From NCBI GenBank assembly GCA_016934295.1, contig JAFGTD010000180.1:1-42221 (forward strand): 42,221 nucleotides of DNA. Direction: 5' to 3'. Origin of the DNA: Acidobacteriota bacterium (GTDB lineage Bacteria > Acidobacteriota > UBA6911). The translations under genes were made by a program, and so were the position numbers. Within the stretch, counting starts at the first letter, position 1. Every line of letters starts with the position of its first letter. Below the pieces are notes generated by a model. The model was not told the DNA's origin, made no database searches, and saw nothing but the letters and a program-made list of their open reading frames with translations. Positions 26,186 to 36,921 of the stretch are shown piece by piece.

Positions 26186-27238
26186 ATGACAGTTAAAAAA
26201 AGTTTCTTTCCGGTCTTCATTCCCATCATCATAACTTGCATTGTTTTTTTCACGGTTTCCTGTTCATCGCCGTCACCCGGCAAGAGAGGGTCATCCTCCG
26301 GTACGCCCGGGACGGTAACCATAAGGCTGGCTATTCCCAATCCTCCGGGAGACGAACTTACCCTGAATGCCGAAAAATTCGCGGATGCCGTCACGGAAAG
26401 AACCGCCGGCGCCTATGAAGTCAGGGTTTTCCCGGGCGAGACGATGGTCAAGGTCCCCGAAATGTACGATGCCGTCCGGCAGGGTTCGGTGGAAATGTCC
26501 GTGGTCGGCACGGGAATCTTTGAAGGACTTCACAAGGGGCTGGCGGAATATCCAATGTCCTGCGACAGCATCGAAGCAAACGTCGCCGCCGCGCAGCCGC
26601 TTCTGGAGCTGTTCAGCCGGGAAATCTTCGAAAAGTTACTGAACATGAAGGGACTTGCGGCGTACACGACAGGCGCGCAGGAACTGATTTCCAAAAGGCC
26701 CGTCAGAACACTGGAAGACTGGAAGGGACTGCTGGTCGGAACCGGGAATCCCCAGGGTTCGGCGCTTGTAACCGCTCTGGGCGCGGCGCCCGTGACGGTA
26801 TTCTGGACCGATTTTTATTCCGGATTATCCAAAGGCACCGTGGACGCGGTATTGAACTCGATGCGGTCCGACATTGTTTATAAACTCACCGACTCCGCAA
26901 AATACGTCACTCTTTTTTACGGCCAGCCGACTTTCCTTTCCTATAACATCAACCTGGATGTCTGGAAAGATATGCCCCCGGGCGCAAGGCAGATCTTCCT
27001 GGAAGAGGCCCGCAAGGCCTGCGATGAAATGAACGCATACCAGGTCCGGGCTTGGAAGGAAACGGACAGGAGCGCCTTAATCGAACTCGGAGCGGAAATA
27101 TACGACGTACCCAAAGAGGAAAGAGAAAGGTGGAAATCCATCGTACAGCCCTATATCGACAGGAAAATCGCCGATCTGGGGGATCTGGGGACACAGATAC
27201 GACAGATCATGGACCGCGCCAACAGCGAATACCGTTAA
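26186..27238 (+). CDS. dctP: TRAP transporter substrate-binding lipoprotein DctP
   Basis: A 350-residue periplasmic receptor for a tripartite ATP-independent importer. AAAAGG lies eight bases before the ATG. The signal ends in FTVSC with lipid Cys26, so this receptor is membrane-tethered, less usual than soluble DctP. Then VTIRLAIPNPPGDELTLNAE, KFADAVTERT, YEVRVFPGETM, YDAVRQGSVEMSVVG, ALGAAPVTVFWTDFYSGLSK, GTVDAVLNSM and YNINLDVWKDMPPGARQIF follow the DctP fold. Ligands of the family are mostly organic acids; the specific ligand cannot be read here. The membrane subunits DctQ and DctM follow in order 34 and 56 bases downstream. Confidence 0.93.
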   Translation: MTVKKSFFPVFIPIIITCIVFFTVSCSSPSPGKRGSSSGTPGTVTIRLAIPNPPGDELTLNAEKFADAVTERTAGAYEVRVFPGETMVKVPEMYDAVRQGSVEMSVVGTGIFEGLHKGLAEYPMSCDSIEANVAAAQPLLELFSREIFEKLLNMKGLAAYTTGAQELISKRPVRTLEDWKGLLVGTGNPQGSALVTALGAAPVTVFWTDFYSGLSKGTVDAVLNSMRSDIVYKLTDSAKYVTLFYGQPTFLSYNINLDVWKDMPPGARQIFLEEARKACDEMNAYQVRAWKETDRSALIELGAEIYDVPKEERERWKSIVQPYIDRKIADLGDLGTQIRQIMDRANSEYR

Positions 27239-27272: not shown

Positions 27273-27800
27273 TTGAACAGCGAAGAAAATCGGATTATTT
27301 CAATCATCGACTTCATATCCCATGGATTGCTCGCCGTCAGCGGCGTGATGATATTGCTGATGGCCTTTGCCGCTACGTACGGCGTCGCCCGGCGATATAT
27401 CCTGAATAATCCCGAACCCTATTCCTATGAAATCAGCATGATGCTGCTGTTATGGTGCTTCGTCCTTTCCGTCGCCGCCCTGCAGAAACAGCAGCGGCAT
27501 CTTCGTGGGGATTTCATTCTCAACCGCCTGCCCCGAAACGTCCGGTTCTTCGTCAACGCCATCCTGTCTCCGCTGCTGGCCTTGCTCTGCGGCGCGGTTT
27601 TAGCCTGGAAGGGGTGGGAGGCCGCGATGTTCTCATTGAAGATCGGAGAACGCAGCATGTCGGCATGGTCGGAACCTTTGTTCCCGGTCAAGGCCGTCAT
27701 ACCCGTCGGCTACGCATTTTTGTTTATTGTCGCCCTGGCCCAATTCATTCAGGGCATGCATGCGCTCATCAGGAAATCGGACAGACGTGGAGAAACATAG
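27273..27800 (+). CDS. dctQ: TRAP transporter small permease DctQ
   Basis: A 175-residue inner-membrane protein with four transmembrane segments, about 12-36 (ISHGLLAVSGVMILLMAFAA), 48-70 (YSYEISMMLLLWCFVLSVAA), 91-113 (FFVNAILSPLLALLCGAVLA) and 133-160 (LFPVKAVIPVGYAFLFIVAL). RRYILNNPEPYSYEISMMLL is the DctQ signature region. The start is a TTG at 27273, with GGAG ten bases before it and AGAGAG overlapping; no ATG or GTG fits. DctQ joins DctM to form the Na+-coupled membrane unit. It is 34 bases from dctP, so it is co-transcribed. Confidence 0.9.
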   Translation: MNSEENRIISIIDFISHGLLAVSGVMILLMAFAATYGVARRYILNNPEPYSYEISMMLLLWCFVLSVAALQKQQRHLRGDFILNRLPRNVRFFVNAILSPLLALLCGAVLAWKGWEAAMFSLKIGERSMSAWSEPLFPVKAVIPVGYAFLFIVALAQFIQGMHALIRKSDRRGET

Positions 27801-27856
27801 TGCAGCCTTGCCGGCCGCCAGGTTTCGGCAATCCCGCACCGGATGGAAGATATTGC

Positions 27857-29158
27857 ATGGACTATAACGCATCCGCCGCCCTATGCATTGCCGTCATGCT
27901 TGCCCTTCTGTTGATAGGCGTCCCGATTGCCTGGGCTCTTTTATCCAGCTCGATTCTTGTGGGCGTCGCATTTTTCGGAATGAGCGCGCTCGACAAGCTG
28001 GGAGGCCAGACATTCTATTTTCTATACAGCCTGGCATGGACGCCCCTTCCGCTGTTCGTATTGCTGGGATGTCTGATCGCCGAAACGACCATAGGCTCCG
28101 ACCTTTTCAAAGCGGGAAAGAACTGGCTTTCCCGTGTCCCCGGAGGGGTGGTTGCCGCCACCATCTGGGCCGAAGCCGGGATGGCCGCAGCGCTGGGCGC
28201 CAGCGCCCCCTGTATAGTTGGAATAGGCAAGATAACCGTACCGGAACTGGAAAAACTCAACTACCGGAAACCCTTTGCCCTGGGCGCCCTTCTAACGGGG
28301 GGAATACTGGGACCGTTGATCCCGCCCAGCGCGGTTATGATTATTTTCGCCATCCTGACGAATGCATCCGTAGGACGGCTATTTATTGCAGGCGTCATTC
28401 CGGGAGCCATCCTGGCCGTCATGCTCTCCGCGACTCCCGTTATACTCTGCCTGAAAAATCCCTCACTCGGCCTTCCGGCCGGCCCTGTTGCCTGGAGAGA
28501 ACGTTTCGCATCGCTCAAAAAAATCTGGCCCATGATCATCATCATATTTTCCATTCTGGGCACAATCTATTTCGGTATTGCGACGCCTACGGAAGCCGCC
28601 GGAGTCGGATGTTTCGTTGTGCTGATCCTGGCTTTCACCATGTACAACATGCGGTTGAAGGCCCTGTACCGGGCTCTGGTGGAAGCCGCCGCTGTCAACG
28701 CAATGCTCATGATCACGGTTATCGGGGCCCAATTCTTTTCCTACATGATCGGCAGCTCTTCCCTGTCGGAACGTATTACAAACGTCATACACACCGCCGA
28801 CCTTTCCCCCTGGCTGATAGTGATCCTCGTCAACATCATTCTTCTGGCCCTGGGATGCTTCCTGGACGGGATAACCATCATGCTGCTGACCGTTCCGGTC
28901 CTGGTCCCTATACTTGTAGGGATGGGCTTCGATCCTTTATGGATCGGCGTCTGGTATGTCGTGAATATGGAGATCGGGCTTATTACTCCGCCCATGGGCA
29001 TCAACCTTTTTTTGACCGGCAGCGTTTTTAAAGTCCCGAGTTCCGACCTGATGAAATCCGTTTTGCCGTTCCTGGCGGTCTGCCTCCTGTTTTTAGCCAT
29101 CGTCGTAGGATTCCCTCAGCTGTCTCTCTGGCTGCCCGGCATTATGCTGGGGAAATGA
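27857..29158 (+). CDS. dctM: TRAP transporter large permease DctM
   Basis: A 433-residue inner-membrane protein, the normal length for DctM, with about 11-12 transmembrane segments. ATG 27857 has GGAAG seven bases upstream. The open frame extends far upstream through dctQ but that part is not membrane-like. Family signatures: IGVPIAWALLSSSILVGVAF, PLFVLLGCLIAETTIGSDLF, AAALGASAPCIVGIGKITVP, TGGILGPLIPPSAVMIIFAI, YFGIATPTEAAGVG, LALGCFLDGITIMLLTVPVL and NMEIGLITPPMGINLFLTGS. It is the carrier subunit. The stop precedes a 345-base gap with repeats and then the UGSC-like selenoprotein. Confidence 0.94.
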   Translation: MDYNASAALCIAVMLALLLIGVPIAWALLSSSILVGVAFFGMSALDKLGGQTFYFLYSLAWTPLPLFVLLGCLIAETTIGSDLFKAGKNWLSRVPGGVVAATIWAEAGMAAALGASAPCIVGIGKITVPELEKLNYRKPFALGALLTGGILGPLIPPSAVMIIFAILTNASVGRLFIAGVIPGAILAVMLSATPVILCLKNPSLGLPAGPVAWRERFASLKKIWPMIIIIFSILGTIYFGIATPTEAAGVGCFVVLILAFTMYNMRLKALYRALVEAAAVNAMLMITVIGAQFFSYMIGSSSLSERITNVIHTADLSPWLIVILVNIILLALGCFLDGITIMLLTVPVLVPILVGMGFDPLWIGVWYVVNMEIGLITPPMGINLFLTGSVFKVPSSDLMKSVLPFLAVCLLFLAIVVGFPQLSLWLPGIMLGK

Positions 29159-29503: not shown

Positions 29504-31270
29504 ATGGCGACGAAATCACTTATCACGGTATTTAATCCTGAAGCCGACCGGATCCCCGTTCTGGATGAATCCGTCACCGGAGTTACAACATGGTCCATGG
29601 CGCCGCGATTGGACAGTCTGGACGGCAAGACGGTCTACCTGGTGAATCAGGGATTCGGGGGCAGCGACCTTTTCATGGAGCAGCTTCAGTCATGGTTTGC
29701 CGAAAACATGCCGACCGTTAAAACAGTCCTGAGACGAAAGACGGGTTTCATCTTCAGGGATGACACCAGGGACCTCTGGGAAGAAATCAAGAAGAAAGGC
29801 GATGCTGTAATTTTCGGTGTGGCCGGCTGACCGGGCTGCGTAACGGCGGTCGCCGGATGTTGCCGCACCCTGGAATTGAAATACGGCATCCCAACCGCGC
29901 CCCTTTCCACCATTGCTTTTGAGGACATGGTGCAGGCGGACACTTCATTCTTCGGGGCGCCTCTGCGCTTTATGTATACGCCGCATCCTGTGGTATCCAT
30001 GCCGCCGTCCGTTCTGCGCGGATACATCGAAGGCAAGGATCCCAAAACGGGGAGACCTCTATTAGAGGAGGTGCTGGAAGCCCTTACCAGGCCATACACG
30101 GCGGATGAAAGCAGGAATCTCGCCGTCGTGCGCCCCACGCCTCAAAGGCGGCGGCTGCTGGAACCGAATACAGAGGAAAATCTGCACCGGCTGTTCGTCG
30201 AACGCGGCTGGAGCGACGGATTGCCCATCATTCTTCCTACGGAGGAACGCGTTGCGGCGATGCTTGCCGGCACCGGCCAGCCGCCGGACAAGCGGGTCGG
30301 AAAATCGCTCGTCGTCGACACCCAGGAGAACCTCGAAGTCACGGTCGAAACAGTAGCCATTGCCGCCGTCATGGCCGGGGCCAAACCGGAGCATCTGCCC
30401 GTGCTTTGCGCCATTGCCTCGACCGGACAACCCGCCATTCAGCCCTCGACACTCCCCTTTACCAGTGCACTGCTTGTCAACGGCCCCATCCGGAATAAGA
30501 TCGGAATGAACTCCGGAATGGGTGCGCTGGGACCGTACAACTCGGTCAATGCGGTCATCGGGCGCGCATGGACGCTGATGAGCATCCTCTGGGGATACGC
30601 CCGGCGCAAACAGACGTTCTGGACGTCCCAGGGCAACAATTACACCTACAACAACCTGTGCATGGCCGAGAACGAAGAGCGCAGCGTCTGGGAACCTTTC
30701 CATGTACAAAAAGGCCACAGGCGCGAAGAAAGCGTCGTCAGCCTGTTCCGGGGATGGAACTTAATCAACAGCACGGGAGCCGCCGCAAGACGTTCCTGGG
30801 GAGACGAGGTCAAACTGCAGATGCAGGCGCTGCCCGCGCTGTATTCCGGCGCCACCCTGATCCTGGATCCGATGCTGGCCGGGCATCTGAAAGATTATCA
30901 AGGCTTCGAAACCCCGATGGATGCCGGCCGGTGGATTTCGGAAAACATCAGGATGACGGCAAGCCAGTTCTGGAGAAACGACATTATCGATATGCTGGTA
31001 ACACCCCTGGCGCTGGCCGGAGTTCAGCCGTATGCGGACTGGAAAAAACTTCCCGCCGATGCGCTTATCGCTCCATACAACAAACCGGCGAAGATCAACA
31101 TTCTCGTGGTGGGAGGAGAAACAAGTCCGCTGTGGAAAGTATCCGACCTCGACTATACGGTCTCCGCCTCCATCGACAAGTGGCTGGCCGAATCCCCCGA
31201 CGGAACCCGGGGCAAAGGGGATCGAGATTCGGAAGAAGCCCCCGGAGCGTACGGATCGCCCAAAAGCTGA
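29504..31270 (+). CDS. UGSC-like family selenoprotein, Sec at UGA 29828, with long C-terminal domain
   Basis: A 588-residue protein read through the in-frame TGA at 29828-29830. AAGGAG lies nine bases before ATG 29504. The N-terminal domain (1-145) has LDGKTVYLVNQGFGGSDLFM, GDAVIFGVAG, then Sec109-Pro-Gly-Cys112, VTAVAGCCRTLELKYGIPTA and a final LSTIAFEDMVQ. UGSC-family (seleno)proteins have the same order: LDGKTVGLVD, DAVV-G-A-U-G-S-C, and ELE--GIPT. Here the motif is U-P-G-C. The C-terminal domain (about 190-560) begins LFVERGWSDGLPIILPTEER and has NGPIRNKIGMNSGMGALGP and INILVVGGETSPLW. Homology is continuous across UGA with no frameshift, and a fine SECIS hairpin follows. The chemistry is unknown; a redox reaction with the Sec/Cys pair is likely. 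It follows a TRAP importer and precedes a peptidase. Ordinary calling would give a 108-residue and a 464-residue piece. Confidence 0.88.
29833..29870 (+). promoter_or_regulatory. Bacterial SECIS-like hairpin downstream of UGA 29828
   Basis: CGGC (29844-29847) and GCCG (29852-29855) form a perfect 4-bp apical stem closing the loop GGUC (29848-29851). The lower stem pairs GGG (29833-29835) with CCC (29868-29870), UGCG (29837-29840) with CGCA (29864-29867), and UAA (29841-29843) with UUG (29860-29862, one wobble); C29836 and GAUG (29856-29859) are bulged. The loop GU lies 19-20 bases after the UGA. In E. coli fdhF the SECIS loop also has GGUC, at about 20-21 bases. Confidence 0.8.
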
Positions 31271-31317: not shown

Positions 31318-32985
31318 ATGGCCAAAGAATTGCTGATACTGACTTCCATCCTTTTTCTGTTCGCCATTATCCTATCCGGATGCAGCAGGGACGATCTGAA
31401 AACCGCTTTAAAGAGCATAAGCACGCGGGATCTGTCGAAACACATCCGGACTGTCTCTTCGGATGAATTTGAAGGACGCCTGCCGTCATCCAGGGGAGAG
31501 GAAAAGACCATCCGTTACATCAAGGGAGAATTCGAAAAACTTGGTCTGGCGCCGGGAAACGGCGACAGTTATTTCCAGGAAGTTCCGCTGGTTTCCATAA
31601 CGGCGGATCCCGATACGGAACTGGTCGTTCAGGGAGGGGGAAAAACTCTTTCATTCGCCTACGGCAAAGACTGCATGGTTTCGACCAGACGGGAACAGGA
31701 AACCGTATCCCTCGAGAATTCGGAGGTGGTATTTATAGGATATGGCATTGTCGCTCCCGAATACGGCTGGAACGATTATGAAGGGCTCGACGTCCGCGGT
31801 AAAACCGTGGTGATGCTGGTAAACGATCCCGGCTTTGCGACACAGGATCCCGCGCTTTTCAACGGCAACGCCATGACCTACTACGGGCGCTGGACCTACA
31901 AGTACGAAGAAGCCGCACGGCAGGGAGCCGAAGCGGCCTTTATCATCCATGAAACCGAACCGGCGGCATACCCCTGGGAGGTGGTCCGGAACAGCTGGAC
32001 CGGTCCCCAGTTCGGCCTGCGCACGGAAGACGGGAACAGGACCCGCTGCGCTATCGAGGGCTGGTTTACGATTGGAAGCGCCCGCACGGTTTTCGAACAG
32101 GCAGGCCTGGATCTGGACAAGGTCAAGTCCGATGCCGCCAAAGCGGATTTCAAGGCCGTCCCCATGCATCTGAAAGCCTCGATGCCCCTGAAGAACACGA
32201 TCGAACAGTCGGTGTCCAACAACGTCATTGCCGTTCTGCCCGGCCGGGCGAGGGCGGACGAATACGTTTTCTACATGGCGCACTGGGATCACCTGGGAAT
32301 CAATTCCTCCCTGGAGGGGGATCGGATATACAACGGCGCGCTGGACAATGCCACGGGTATTGCCGGCTTGATTCAATTGGCGGAAGCCTTCACAAAACTT
32401 CCCTCTCCACCGGCACGATCCATCGCCTTTCTCGCCGTAACGGCCGAGGAGCAGGGGCTGCTGGGTTCGGAATACTACGGGGAGCATCCGATTTTTCCCC
32501 CTGCCAAAACGGTGGCCGCCGTGAATATGGATGCGCTGAATATTTACGGAAAAATGAAGGACGTGACCCTTATCGGGTACGGGAATTCCGACCTGGACGA
32601 CTATGTAAAATCGGCCGCCGCTCTGCAGGGCAGAACGGTGCGTCCCGATCCGGAACCTGAAAAAGGCCATTTCTACCGGGCCGATCATTTCAGTTTCGCC
32701 AAGCAGGGCATCCCGGCGCTCTATGTGACCGTGGGGCTGGACCATGTCGAGCACGGCAAAGAGTGGACGAAGGAACAGAAGGACAGATATACCGAAAACC
32801 ATTACCACAAGCCGTCGGACGAATACGATCCCGAATGGGACCTGTCGGGCATGGTCGAGGATCTTCAACTGCTGTTTCATGTCGGATTCAATCTTGGAAA
32901 CGAGGACTCCTTCCCGAACTGGAAAGAGGGCACCGAATTCCGGGCAAAACGGGAGGAAGACATGGAGGCTGCCGCCTTGAAATAA
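31318..32985 (+). CDS. M28-family zinc metallopeptidase lipoprotein with PA domain
   Basis: A 555-residue lipoprotein. AAGGAG lies eight bases before ATG 31318; the lipobox is AIILSGC (Cys22). Residues about 130-240 form the PA insert (EVVFIGYGIVAPEYGW, LDVRGKTVVMLVNDPGF). The M28 domain covers about 300-540: YMAHWDHLGI (His322), YNGALDNATGIAGLI (Asp343), AVTAEEQGLLGSEY (catalytic Glu377, ligand Glu378), AAVNMDALN (Asp405) and HYHKPSDEY (His497). All ligands are intact, so an active aminopeptidase or glutaminyl-cyclase-like enzyme at the cell envelope is likely. It begins 47 bases after the selenoprotein stop, probably in the same transcript, and ends before a strong terminator. Confidence 0.93.
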   Translation: MAKELLILTSILFLFAIILSGCSRDDLKTALKSISTRDLSKHIRTVSSDEFEGRLPSSRGEEKTIRYIKGEFEKLGLAPGNGDSYFQEVPLVSITADPDTELVVQGGGKTLSFAYGKDCMVSTRREQETVSLENSEVVFIGYGIVAPEYGWNDYEGLDVRGKTVVMLVNDPGFATQDPALFNGNAMTYYGRWTYKYEEAARQGAEAAFIIHETEPAAYPWEVVRNSWTGPQFGLRTEDGNRTRCAIEGWFTIGSARTVFEQAGLDLDKVKSDAAKADFKAVPMHLKASMPLKNTIEQSVSNNVIAVLPGRARADEYVFYMAHWDHLGINSSLEGDRIYNGALDNATGIAGLIQLAEAFTKLPSPPARSIAFLAVTAEEQGLLGSEYYGEHPIFPPAKTVAAVNMDALNIYGKMKDVTLIGYGNSDLDDYVKSAAALQGRTVRPDPEPEKGHFYRADHFSFAKQGIPALYVTVGLDHVEHGKEWTKEQKDRYTENHYHKPSDEYDPEWDLSGMVEDLQLLFHVGFNLGNEDSFPNWKEGTEFRAKREEDMEAAALK

Positions 32986-33093: not shown

Positions 33094-36000
33094 TTAGAAA
33101 TCCAAGCGTATTGCGATCTGCGTAACTCTTGGATCAAATGTCGCCGTCGATCTTCCAAACGAACTCGCAGCAATGTTTTCCTCAGGATAATCGAAGTTCG
33201 CGTGGTTGAAGAAATTGAAGAAATTGCCTTGAAGCGACATTCTTACCGTCTCAGTGACTTTAAACCGTTTCTGGATGCCGAAATCAACATTCTTGTATCC
33301 CGGCCCCGTCATGCTGTTTCGGGGTTGCGGCGAATTGCACCACAAGCCATCGTTCACGTCAGCGGGACATTCGTAATCCGCCCACATATCCGGATCGAAG
33401 TAACCGTCAGCCGGACTTCCGCTATCATAAACTGAATTCATCGGACTGCCGGATCCGGTGTACACAACGCGATCCGTATAGCGACCGTCTTTGTTCAGAT
33501 CGGCGTTGGAGTTGAACGGGGTGAAAGGAACTCCGCTTTGCAGGGTGATGATCGTATGGATATTCCATCCGCCCAGGTAGCGGTGCTCCCTGAGAAACGG
33601 CAGTTCGTAGCTGAATGTTGTAACGAACCGGTGCCTCATGTGGTAATCCGAGAGGCCGTAATCATCCATAGGATTCAGGACATTCGTCGGTCCCTCGTCT
33701 GTTCCGCGTCCGTTGAACAGGTCGCTCAGATTATCGTAAGCCCTGGACCAGGTATAGCTGGCATTAAAACCGAGACCGGCTGAATAGCGCTTTCTCACTG
33801 TTAATTGCAAGGCGTGATAATCTGATTCAAAGTTGTTATTGCGATAGTTATCCGCGCCGATGTTGGGATTGATGCGTTCCGAAGAATAGCCGTTTCCCGC
33901 CAATCGACCGCTGAAGGTGTTAATGTCGTAATAGCCGATCAGCTTCCGGCCCAAAGTGGCTATATATTCAGGTTCAAACACATACCCATTCAGGAACTCC
34001 CACTGCACACCGACATGGAACTGTTTGTAGTAGGGACTGACCATATTTTGATCCATGTGTCTTGGATTCGGCGTGGGGGCATATTCCGACGAGTTAAACA
34101 GCTCTCTCGAGGAAAACGGGTACGTATAAAGGCCCGGCGTCGATAGTGCGCCCGCGGGATTGTCGTTTACGAAAGCGCCAATCTGGTTGTCCGAAAAGAG
34201 CGGCGGATTGAATCGGATGTTTTCGAACGTGTTGTTAAAGATGCGGTCGTACATGATGCCTGCTCCGCCGCGCAGTATCATCTTTTGATTCCCCAGGACA
34301 TCCCATGCAAAACCGACCCGCGGGGCGAAATTATTTGTGTCCTTGTTCCAGACTTCATTGTTGCGGGTCTGGAATGATCCCGTGGCCACTCCTGCGAAGA
34401 ATGGATCATCCACCGGGAAGTAGGGATTGTTGGATTCCGTAACTATCGGCGTGACCCGGGTTCCAAAATAGAAATTGGAATCGACATCGTCCCGGAAATT
34501 GTGCGGCGGCCCGAAATATTCATAGCGGATACCCAGGTTAACCGTCAATCTCGGGAGGATACGCCAGTCATCCTGGAAGTAGAACGCTAATTCGTTGGCT
34601 CGATAACCGCGATAGAAATCAGGAGCCTGACCGGTTGACGGGTCCAGAGATGCGCTGGCGAAATACATGGAACCGTATGCAGGCCCCCCGAAGACAGCCA
34701 GATCAGCTTCGTCGCCGAAGGCCATATCGGTAACCAGTTCCTCTACACCGTAAGGCAGGTAAAAACCGCTCTCGTCAAGATGAAAAGAGGAGCCATTACG
34801 GATCCGGCGGTATTCCCAACCGGCCTTGAAACTGTGTTTGCCTTTTATGAACGCAAGATGGTCCTGAAACTGGAACTGATTGTCCGTGAAATACTGCGGT
34901 ATTCCGACACTCATCCCGAAGCCGACCGTCATCGGATCGAATGCCGTGACGACGGATGGCATTCCTTCGTAACCCGGCATCATGGGATAATCCTGTCTAT
35001 GCCTCAGATAGCTTACCTTGAAAACATTTAAAACAGTCGGACTAAAAGTGTGGGTCCATGTGACAGCCGCATTCTGACCGCGGGCATCCTGAACCCACGC
35101 CGGGGAGATATCAACATCTCCACCGCCGTAGCTATTGCCCGATCGGGCTGTCTGGTTCAGGTAGAAGAATGAAACATGATCCGTATTGGTCGCCTGATAG
35201 TCGACTTTCGAGGAAATCCGATACTCATTGGCGAAAAACGGGCTCTGGATGAATACATCGCCGTACACCGGAACCGGATATTCCAAACCGGCTGTCAGGA
35301 GACCCTGGCCCGTATTGCTGAACCCGCTTGTTGCCAGGGGGAAGGGACCTTTTTCGGCCAACTGTGTAAAAATAGGCCCCAGGGAGTCGGAATTGCTGAA
35401 CAGGCCCGGACATGCCTCGCCGGTATAAGCCATGCAGAGACCGTCGGGATCGCTTTCCGCCCATTGCTGTAAGCCTCCGGCATCCACCCAGTCCAGGAAT
35501 TCCCGGGTTGTTCCGATTCCGTGCACCGGTTCCGTTTGCCTCATCCTGTGCACCTCTGTCGAAAAGAAGAAGAAGGCCTTGTCTTTCTGTATAGGTCCGC
35601 TGAAGGAACCGCCGAACTGATTGCGAACCAGGCTGTCCTCGATGCCGTTCGCATTTGAGAAGAAGTTGTTGGCCGCCAGGGCCTGGACCCGGTTGTATTC
35701 GAACAGAGAACCGTGGAATGCATTGGTGCCGGACTTCAGAACGGTGTCGGTGATGAAACCGCCCGCTTTCCCGTATTCGGCGGTGAAGCTGTTTGTGATA
35801 ACGCGATATTCGGCAATGGCATCCGGAGAAATACTTGTGGATGCGCCTCCCGGATCGGCCGTGGAAATCTGGCCGCGGCCGCCCTGGCCCTGATCGTTGT
35901 TGTCGACTCCCTCGACCATATAGTTGCCGGCGCCACCGCGCGCACCATTCACGGCTGCACCGCGGGTATTGCCTGCCATGTCATCAGGAACGGCGCCTGC

Positions 36001-36492
36001 TACCAATTCAATGAATTTATTCTGGCTGCGGACTTCCAAAGGCATATTTTGCCATATATTCTGATCGATCAAGGTGGAGACTGCCGATTCTGTCGGTCGC
36101 ACTATCGCAGCGCGTTCTGCCGTAACCGTCACAGCATCGCTTGGCGCGCCCACCTCCAAAAGGATATCCTGCGTGACGGCCGTACCTACGCTTACCTCCA
36201 GCCCTTCAAGCTTAAAGGTTTTGAACCCGGGATACTGAACGTCCAGTGAATATGTTCCCACTATCGGCAAAGCCAAAAAACGATAAATTCCGCTCTCATT
36301 GGTGACTGTTGAGCGTACAATGCCGGTATTCGCATTAGTCAACTCTACAACAACTCCATCGATAACGGCATTTGTGGAATCGGTTACAATTCCGTTGATT
36401 TCACCTGTTCCTGCTTGCGGCCAGGCATTTGAGGTGTAAAAAAGGCACAACAAAACGAGTGTCCAGACAGAAAATTTATATCGGAACTTCAT
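33094..36492 (-). CDS. TonB-dependent receptor, Oar-like, with carboxypeptidase regulatory-like domain
   Basis: An outer-membrane barrel of about 1132 residues. ATG 36492 has GGAGAG three to five bases upstream; an ATG at 36507 lies in the ribosome site itself. The signal is YKFSVWTLVLLCLFYTSNAW, about residues 3-25. Residues about 30-110 are a CarboxypepD_reg domain (GEINGIVTDSTNAVIDGVVV, GIYRFLALPIVGTYSLDV). The plug follows (about 120-250: AVTVTAERAAIV, GARGGAGNYMVEGVDNND, ITNSFTAEYGKAGGFI), then a barrel ending in QIAIRLDF. It lacks a clear TonB box at its start but matches Oar/cna-type receptors frequent in Acidobacteriota, where they take up oligomers or act in adhesion. Substrate unknown. 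Nearby response regulator and lipase genes lie upstream on the same strand with gaps of hundreds of bases. Confidence 0.92.
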   Translation of the reverse strand: MKFRYKFSVWTLVLLCLFYTSNAWPQAGTGEINGIVTDSTNAVIDGVVVELTNANTGIVRSTVTNESGIYRFLALPIVGTYSLDVQYPGFKTFKLEGLEVSVGTAVTQDILLEVGAPSDAVTVTAERAAIVRPTESAVSTLIDQNIWQNMPLEVRSQNKFIELVAGAVPDDMAGNTRGAAVNGARGGAGNYMVEGVDNNDQGQGGRGQISTADPGGASTSISPDAIAEYRVITNSFTAEYGKAGGFITDTVLKSGTNAFHGSLFEYNRVQALAANNFFSNANGIEDSLVRNQFGGSFSGPIQKDKAFFFFSTEVHRMRQTEPVHGIGTTREFLDWVDAGGLQQWAESDPDGLCMAYTGEACPGLFSNSDSLGPIFTQLAEKGPFPLATSGFSNTGQGLLTAGLEYPVPVYGDVFIQSPFFANEYRISSKVDYQATNTDHVSFFYLNQTARSGNSYGGGDVDISPAWVQDARGQNAAVTWTHTFSPTVLNVFKVSYLRHRQDYPMMPGYEGMPSVVTAFDPMTVGFGMSVGIPQYFTDNQFQFQDHLAFIKGKHSFKAGWEYRRIRNGSSFHLDESGFYLPYGVEELVTDMAFGDEADLAVFGGPAYGSMYFASASLDPSTGQAPDFYRGYRANELAFYFQDDWRILPRLTVNLGIRYEYFGPPHNFRDDVDSNFYFGTRVTPIVTESNNPYFPVDDPFFAGVATGSFQTRNNEVWNKDTNNFAPRVGFAWDVLGNQKMILRGGAGIMYDRIFNNTFENIRFNPPLFSDNQIGAFVNDNPAGALSTPGLYTYPFSSRELFNSSEYAPTPNPRHMDQNMVSPYYKQFHVGVQWEFLNGYVFEPEYIATLGRKLIGYYDINTFSGRLAGNGYSSERINPNIGADNYRNNNFESDYHALQLTVRKRYSAGLGFNASYTWSRAYDNLSDLFNGRGTDEGPTNVLNPMDDYGLSDYHMRHRFVTTFSYELPFLREHRYLGGWNIHTIITLQSGVPFTPFNSNADLNKDGRYTDRVVYTGSGSPMNSVYDSGSPADGYFDPDMWADYECPADVNDGLWCNSPQPRNSMTGPGYKNVDFGIQKRFKVTETVRMSLQGNFFNFFNHANFDYPEENIAASSFGRSTATFDPRVTQIAIRLDF

Positions 36493-36921
36493 TTTCTCTC
36501 CTTCCATAAAGTGGGAATTTCAAAGAATCTTTCTGCACCGAGACATAGCCTTGGAGCTAACATGTTATCCAACTTCCATTTGTCGCAAAACACGGTCGCA
36601 CAGGATAATCCAAGGGCGAACCCATCCATAACAAATCGTATAATCCTATCGGGAGGCACACAGTGTGGAATCTTTAGTCCGGTTTCCAAAATGAATCCCT
36701 CCGAGAGGAGGCTGTTATGTACTACTTGCTGCGCTGCAATGCTTTGTAAAATTTCGACTTATTATAACGAGCTGGGGCGGCGGATATCAAAAGAAAAATT
36801 GTTCATTATGCGATATATGAGGCGCTTCGGAATAGAGCCGCAATTTGCTTCAGTGAACAGTTGTGGGCCATCCCCCATCGGAACAAAGTGAATCATAGAG
36901 AATATCCGCCCGGGCTTGCCT
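36493..36921. other. Intergenic region upstream of the TonB-receptor gene
   Basis: About 430 bases with no supported gene; short frames on both strands lack ribosome sites and family resemblance. It should contain the receptor promoter, but I could not identify an operator or a clear sigma-70 box. Confidence 0.35.

Follow-up and report, generated by a model that had tools for sequence, protein, structure and literature searches.

Results

Organization of the locus

The window analysed here is a 42,221-nucleotide stretch of DNA from an Acidobacteriota bacterium. The gene under study lies at positions 29504 to 31270, downstream of two genes for a TRAP transporter. The features considered are the following:

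26186-27238, forward strand: TRAP transporter solute-binding protein DctP (PF03480, 8.7e-38), upstream; order kept in the congeneric genome G242
27452-29158, forward strand: TRAP transporter DctM domain protein, with DctM at residues 147-557 (PF06808, 3.2e-79); order kept in G242
29504-31270, forward strand: UGSC/partner fusion selenoprotein of 588 aa with the motif U-P-G-C (Sec109, Cys112)
29591-30007, forward strand: UGSC domain, residues 30-168 (PF24696, hhalign, and an AlphaFold2 model with alternating strands and helices)
29828-29830, forward strand: in-frame TGA, Sec109 (translation; Cys in betaproteobacterial homologues)
29837-29839, forward strand: codon of Cys112
29844-29855, forward strand: apical stem-loop of a bacterial SECIS element, with the GGUC loop at 29848-29851 (folding, comparative codon test)
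30173-31183, forward strand: C-terminal partner domain, about residues 224-560 (encoded in other genomes by a neighbouring gene of its own)
31318-32985, forward strand: M28-family peptidase, 47 nt after the selenoprotein gene (PF04389, 4.4e-46); order kept in G242
33094-36507, reverse strand: 1137-aa outer membrane beta-barrel protein whose N-terminal domain is carboxypeptidase-regulatory-like (PF25183, PF13620)

When the TGA at 29828-29830 is read as selenocysteine (Sec, U), the frame continues in phase across it and yields a protein of 588 residues, MATKSL...GDAVIFGVAG-U-PGCVTAVAGCCRTLELKYGIPTAP..., in which U is residue 109 and residues 109-112 read U-P-G-C, that is, Pro-Gly-Cys after Sec instead of Gly-Ser-Cys. 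Under translation table 11, the same stretch holds two ORFs, 29504-29830 (108 aa) and 29876-31270 (464 aa, with a TTG start), and standard gene calling would give two proteins. As Pfam matches residues 30-168 only, some 400 residues beyond the UGSC domain are unassigned. In all these respects the reading of the gene in an earlier note, made from the window sequence alone, agrees with the present data.

Selenocysteine at position 109

The genes selA, selB, selC and selD, whose absence had been set beforehand as a possible refutation, are all present in the source genome (5.45 Mb, 343 contigs, 93.79% complete): a tRNA-Sec (72.5 bits, anticodon TCA), SelB (407 bits), SelA (550 bits) and two SelD genes (L111 and L112; G000:C267 and C23), each with one in-frame TGA. 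Homologues ending at residue 108 as a genuine C-terminus, the other observation that could have spoken against Sec, were not found: in close orthologues the frame runs on past the TGA, and in betaproteobacterial homologues the position is occupied by Cys. A search of the phylum (396 genomes, source genome included) gave matches in 39 genomes. In the congeneric genomes G242, G266, G250, G172 and G113 the best match is 74-84% identical to the window protein and contains one TGA, within the motif UPGC; the same TGA in five other genomes rules out a sequencing or assembly error.

The residues at the motif were tabulated for 93 distinct rows out of 116 records, many of the rows being close orthologues and four partial matches having been excluded. 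Residue 109 is Sec in 73 rows, Cys in 14 (12 CSTC and 2 CGSC), which are the Cys orthologues that the earlier note had proposed to look for, Ser or Thr in five, and a gap in one. Cys112 is present in all 87 rows with Sec or Cys at position 109 and absent from all five Ser/Thr rows. Likewise, positions 109 and 112 are both invariant in alignment A1, which comprises 41 fusion proteins (window protein included, L071 left out) with TGA read as Cys. Such strict coupling is as expected of a redox pair and would point to Se-S chemistry, with Cys112 as the likely resolving thiol. We consider it nearly certain that 29504-31270 encodes a selenoprotein.

The SECIS hairpin

A 4-bp stem, in which CGGC (29844-29847) faces GCCG (29852-29855), closes the GGUC loop, and the spacing from TGA to loop is 17 nt. 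RNAfold places the loop inside a longer imperfect hairpin of -20.5 kcal/mol. It should be noted that this energy, taken alone, is ordinary (z -0.90; 32 of 200 shuffles fold as well), and the case for the hairpin therefore rests on a comparative codon test. A candidate hairpin defined by a simple rule was present in 71/73 Sec rows, 9/14 Cys rows and 3/5 others, with p-values that are only indicative because the rows are related.

In the codon test, the proteins were kept fixed and synonymous codons were resampled 3000 times according to each ORF's own usage, at stem positions picked after the sequences had been seen. The 16 distinct UPGC/UIGC rows form 80 of 96 stem pairs, against a null mean of 65.8 and a maximum of 77, so that none of the 3000 resamples reaches 80. 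No resample is as high as the 73/78 pairs of the 13 UDGC/UEAC rows or the 48/66 pairs of the 11 distinct UGSC rows, and 10/3000 are as high as the 80/102 pairs of the 17 USxC rows. The Cys control, which covered the UPGC stem position in 12 CSTC rows, gave 38/72 pairs against a null mean of 43.2, with 2979/3000 resamples as high. Selection on the stem tracks the presence of Sec in the motif groups tested, from which eight of the 73 Sec rows (UHGC, UWGC, UDSC, UGGC and UUGC) were left out. Only two to four of the six pairs are formed in 5/11 distinct UGSC rows and in 2/13 UDGC/UEAC rows, and four of the six in the six UPGC rows that come from the window's genus. The earlier description of a hairpin with a GGUC loop and correct spacing holds as regards loop and spacing and gains comparative selection in its favour, but the energy of the single sequence is not significant.

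The UGSC domain and its family

The window protein matches Pfam PF24696 with an E-value of 6.3e-15 and 56.2 bits, above the gathering cut-off of 25. Its score against the NCBIfam equivalog NF041046 (UGSC_fam) is 46.8 bits, below the curated cut-off of 125, and the literal U-G-S-C of that equivalog is absent from the window protein. Since the window protein escapes the equivalog cut-off, genes of this type are probably annotated as two separate ORFs or as pseudogenes.

The source genome has 28 places matching PF24696, 27 of them over the cut-off, with an in-frame TGA in 20/28; three of the eight matches without TGA (C330:10147, C221 and C311) are unresolved at the motif. Frames of 556-626 codons, a length that corresponds to the fused form, contain 25/28 of these places. 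Across the genus, there are 10 to 28 UGSC matches in each of the 10 genomes searched. Among 297 sampled genomes of the phylum, at least 32 match: nine belong to the genus and 23 to the remaining 288, and the matching genomes from outside the genus have at least one or two copies each (at most 11 candidates were scored per genome). The genus is thus an example of how an acidobacterial lineage can be selenoprotein-rich via one family. In a 2016 survey of more than 5200 organisms, Table 3 gives 33 UGSC selenoproteins in 26 organisms, and 39 selenoprotein genes are the largest selenoproteome in sequenced bacteria as of that survey (PMC5029168); the 20 TGA genes found here and those 33 are not compared like for like, since the survey may have skipped UxxC variants.

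In a tree of 76 rows, the UPGC rows and two UIGC rows form one group of 16 (support 100/100) with members from Acidobacteriota, Bacillota, Chloroflexota and Spirochaetota. Judged by sequence, UPGC with the two UIGC rows is a well-supported subfamily across four phyla, new here. The paralogues of the source genome are scattered over the tree, which suggests that the duplications are mostly old. The 11 CSTC rows form one group whose sister is a USTC (Sec) pair, so Sec and Cys have been exchanged within the family. The places of UUGC, CGSC and several others are unsure, being flagged as long branches.

Fusion of UGSC to a domain of unknown function is a kind already known since 2008, when a UGSC/Unknown_1 fusion was reported in the Global Ocean Sampling selenoproteome; UGSC was the fifth most numerous selenoprotein family in the survey, with 255 sequences (PMC2398784). 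No function of UGSC proteins is stated in the excerpts of the literature examined. The earlier note, which spoke of a UGSC-like selenoprotein, is borne out and was incomplete: UPGC is one of many UxxC variants, the gene belongs to a large paralogous family, and this family has relatives in GrdB and PrdB.

Several paralogues deserve mention. One UGSC-type paralogue of 591 aa, L097:6967-8742 on the reverse strand (G000:C289), has a counterpart, L184, in G242:C14, and in both genomes it contains four in-frame TGA codons, at residues 131, 132, 566 and 568 (UUGC and GGHUVUAPFSW). It also contains LITACG, which we take to be a lipoprotein-like signal. RNAfold predicts candidate stems of 7-8 bp after both TGA groups. 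Over the 26 codons from the third TGA, the two genomes differ by four synonymous and two amino-acid changes, and the sequences diverge right after TAG/TAA. A light literature search retrieved no earlier report of adjacent Sec residues. Five other paralogues of the source genome (G000:C330, C100 and C21; L094, L083, L012 and L093) have SGGS, TGTS, SSST, SGQG and SETG at the motif; lacking the second-position Cys, these Ser/Thr forms are possible non-redox members. Finally, acidobacterial contig L052 carries UGSC paralogues side by side in the order USYC-UPGC-UHGC-UEAC, and parts of this set are found in L050 and L051; three or four different UGSC fusion genes in a row may hint at hetero-complexes.

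Relation to GrdB and PrdB

The surroundings of Sec are alike in the two families, as the following rows illustrate:

PrdB (L151): DAVVLTAG-U-GTCHRSAVIVQRAIESVGIPT
GrdB (L131): DAVILTST-U-GTCTRCGATMVKEIERAGLP
Stand-alone UGSC protein of the source genome: DAVVYGISD-U-GSCTSWSIHDSAELEKKGIPT
Window protein: DAVIFGVAG-U-PGCVTAVAGCCRTLELKYGIPT

Profiles built from 88 UGSC, 30 GrdB and 13 PrdB rows were compared by hhalign. UGSC matched GrdB with a probability of 93.4% and a score of 43.7 (best of 100 column shuffles 18.9), and PrdB with 89.5% and 39.4 (best of 100 column shuffles 9.9). When the four UGTC motif columns were masked, the probabilities dropped to 34% for GrdB and 44% for PrdB, but the scores, 25.6 and 27.3, remained above the best of 60 shuffles (16.4 and 12.5, respectively). 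The alignment with GrdB extends to a PHP stretch (IPHPLGNP in UGSC, TPHPVVSMPP in GrdB). Among the 41 fusion proteins, weak NCBIfam matches were obtained to PrdB in six members, GrdB in two and GrdF in one (best E 0.0076, 0.014 and 0.12, respectively); unrelated NCBIfam models also reach E 0.011 and 0.028 in this set, and PrdB is the only model beyond UGSC with more than two of the 41 members. Remote homology between the UGSC domain and the Sec domain of GrdB and PrdB is very probable.

At E up to 1, PF07355 matched neither the window protein nor any of the 41 members. It was also without a match in the source genome, so UGSC would work here without GrdB/PrdB; the GRDA profile gave no match in that genome either, in a search that had no positive control. 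The portions of PMC2398784, PMC9312934, PMC13188914 and PMC5029168 that were examined contain no statement of a relation between UGSC and GrdB/PrdB.

Some further observations concern the GrdB and PrdB families themselves. Two loci, L117 (G266:C135) and L118 (G122:C174), gave weak PF07355 matches to the C-terminal part of the model only and are possible intermediates between UGSC and GrdB. The GrdB loci L119-L148 have TGA at the Sec position in the DNA, although the profile search marked no stops in most matches; its stop marking may be unreliable for this family. At L176:643-2301 (reverse strand) and L177:480-2174 (forward strand), both in Bacillota genomes, PrdA-like and PrdB-like parts apparently form one frame with the partner first, the sequence having been inspected for L176 only.

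The C-terminal partner domain

Searches of the 41 members with Pfam returned, beyond UGSC, single-member rows only, with E 0.049 or worse, and a sequence search for a solved relative of the partner domain gave three rows (best E 0.81). The models used for Foldseek had mean pLDDT values of 85.9 and 84.6, and a pTM of 0.86 in both cases. The whole model matched nothing at E 0.001 or better, the top rows (best 50 of 1447) being of mixed kinds with low TM-scores, and the partner domain matched no solved structure at that threshold. A fumarate hydratase fold, considered for the partner domain, was rejected (top Foldseek rows with TM about 0.2 and rmsd about 17, best E 2.6e-3).

Elsewhere in the phylum, partner and UGSC are separate, close genes, divergent in G270:C16 and G117:C30 and co-directional in G152:C39 and G122:C123. 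At least 17 of the 18 UGSC-bearing plasmid records also match the C-terminal part of the query (among 20 listed of 23); the two are fused in seven of these 17 and no more than about 0.5 kb apart in 10. That the two are either fused or adjacent indicates that UGSC and partner act together.

PrdA and GrdE carry a pyruvoyl group. Their profiles, which we assigned by their place beside PrdB and GrdB, find each other at 99.86% in hhalign, while the partner domain matches PrdA and GrdE at 0.05% and 0.06%. The partner domain is not detectably related to PrdA/GrdE, and since profile similarity is lacking, pyruvoyl chemistry is not transferable to it.

Gene neighbourhood

The gap before the selenoprotein gene is 345 nt, which would leave room for its own promoter, and DctP is possibly linked to the selenoprotein in function. 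A tblastn search (E 1e-8) with the DctP, DctM and M28 peptidase proteins recovered the set in G242 alone (L063, the same place as L189). Among the five close orthologues, the link is absent in G266 and G113, and the upstream side is not assessable in G250 and G172, whose contigs begin just before the gene. TRAP or TTT genes lie near three plasmid homologues; the fourth, from Neorhizobium, is accompanied by ABC transporter genes. A general transporter link was dropped, as the TRAP set recurs only in G242.

The neighbours of the paralogues vary widely. The 127 ORFs within four genes of the paralogues in the source genome include CoA-transferases, a thioredoxin-reductase-like gene, DUF6282, a glycyl-radical enzyme with a radical-SAM gene, tannase, URO-D and others; no TRAP genes were among 40 hand-picked neighbour proteins. 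So varied a setting is compatible with a wide range of substrates as well as with mixed complexes. The thioredoxin-reductase-like gene (Pyr_redox_2) is directly upstream of the stand-alone UGSC gene of the source genome, and in Variovorax SRS16 a gene annotated trxB is near the UGSC/partner pair.

Discussion

The best explanation overall, to which we assign a probability of about 0.5, is that the gene encodes a selenol-thiol substrate reductase like PrdB/GrdB, with the C-terminal domain as the substrate partner. The role of a substrate reductase, taken by itself, may be put just short of even odds. SelB, which takes part in Sec insertion, would bind Sec-tRNA and the hairpin after the UGA and insert Sec at position 109, a step well supported by comparison. 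In the AlphaFold2 model, Sec109 is located just before the helix that follows the third strand. Its selenolate would attack a small organic substrate, cleaving or reducing a carbon-heteroatom bond; Cys112 would resolve the selenide as Se-S, a thioredoxin-type system would re-reduce the Sec-Cys pair, and the C-terminal domain would take the substrate-binding part played by PrdA/GrdE. On this view, the paralogues could reduce different substrates or assemble into mixed complexes. Comparison of sequences supports Sec insertion, the coupled Sec-Cys pair, the physical link to the partner and the remote homology to PrdB/GrdB. As a counterpoint to a PrdB/GrdB-like reductase, Foldseek gave no match at E 0.001, from a library that may hold no GrdB/PrdB structure.

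Other readings of these data were weighed against the substrate reductase. That there is no selenoprotein at all, the TGA being a true stop, a sequencing error or the mark of a pseudogene, might be argued from the ordinary energy of the window hairpin, but the recurrence of the TGA in five other genomes, the Cys homologues, the Sec machinery and the codon-level selection on the hairpin make this highly improbable. The UxxC motif would suit a general thiol/selenol oxidoreductase of the thioredoxin or peroxiredoxin kind as well, devoid of a special small substrate and with the C-terminal domain as a protein client or regulator. However, the profile matches GrdB/PrdB, none of the 41 members matched a thioredoxin-family Pfam or NCBIfam model at E of 1 or below, strands and helices alternate in the AlphaFold2 model with Sec directly behind the third strand, and the Foldseek rows (best 50 of 1447) are not thioredoxins. 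Some 20 parallel copies in one genome would also fit substrate diversity better, and we regard such an oxidoreductase as rather unlikely.

A further reading is that of a Sec-based transferase, lyase or binding protein, in which Sec would act as a nucleophile or bind a metal and take no part in redox chemistry, and the paralogues would work in complexes. It draws on the mixed sets of paralogues side by side on three acidobacterial contigs (L050, L051 and L052), on the five paralogues of the source genome that are still found over the UGSC domain with neither Sec nor Cys, and on the UUGC paralogue, which looks like a lipoprotein with four TGA. The strict coupling of residue 109 with Cys112, which points to Se-S chemistry, speaks against a non-redox Sec, and we hold this reading to be unlikely, a little more so than the general oxidoreductase.

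A broader proposal can be made, though only tentatively: the glycine/proline reductase selenoenzymes may include another large branch, formed by UGSC and its partner, in which this partner replaces the pyruvoyl protein. This branch would have diversified within one acidobacterial genus (10-28 places per genome, 10 genomes) into a selenium-dependent reductase repertoire for organic substrates, one member being a four-Sec lipoprotein with two adjacent Sec residues. A parallel is the diversification of reductive dehalogenases in their hosts. In any case, the link to GrdB/PrdB provides a concrete hypothesis, and an assay, for UGSC proteins.

Among known systems, PrdB, GrdB and GrdF (PF07355, TIGR04483, TIGR01917) resemble the window protein in the UxxC motif, in profile homology and in having a partner subunit, and PrdB also in its Sec context, DAVVLTAG-U-GTCHRSAV...IE..GIPT. 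In contrast, the partner in those systems is the pyruvoyl protein PrdA/GrdE, whereas the partner here is without detectable homology, and the window protein is without a PF07355 match. A PrdA-PrdB fusion from Bacillota (L176) likewise carries a partner and a Sec domain on a single polypeptide, but in reversed order, the partner coming first; this partner is presumably PrdA, judging by its place beside PrdB. There is also likeness to the UGSC family itself (PF24696, NF041046), with which the window protein shares the N-terminal domain, the UxxC motif with its Sec/Cys exchange and the presence of a C-terminal fusion domain, and from which it differs by its UPGC motif and by being one of 28 places in a single genome.
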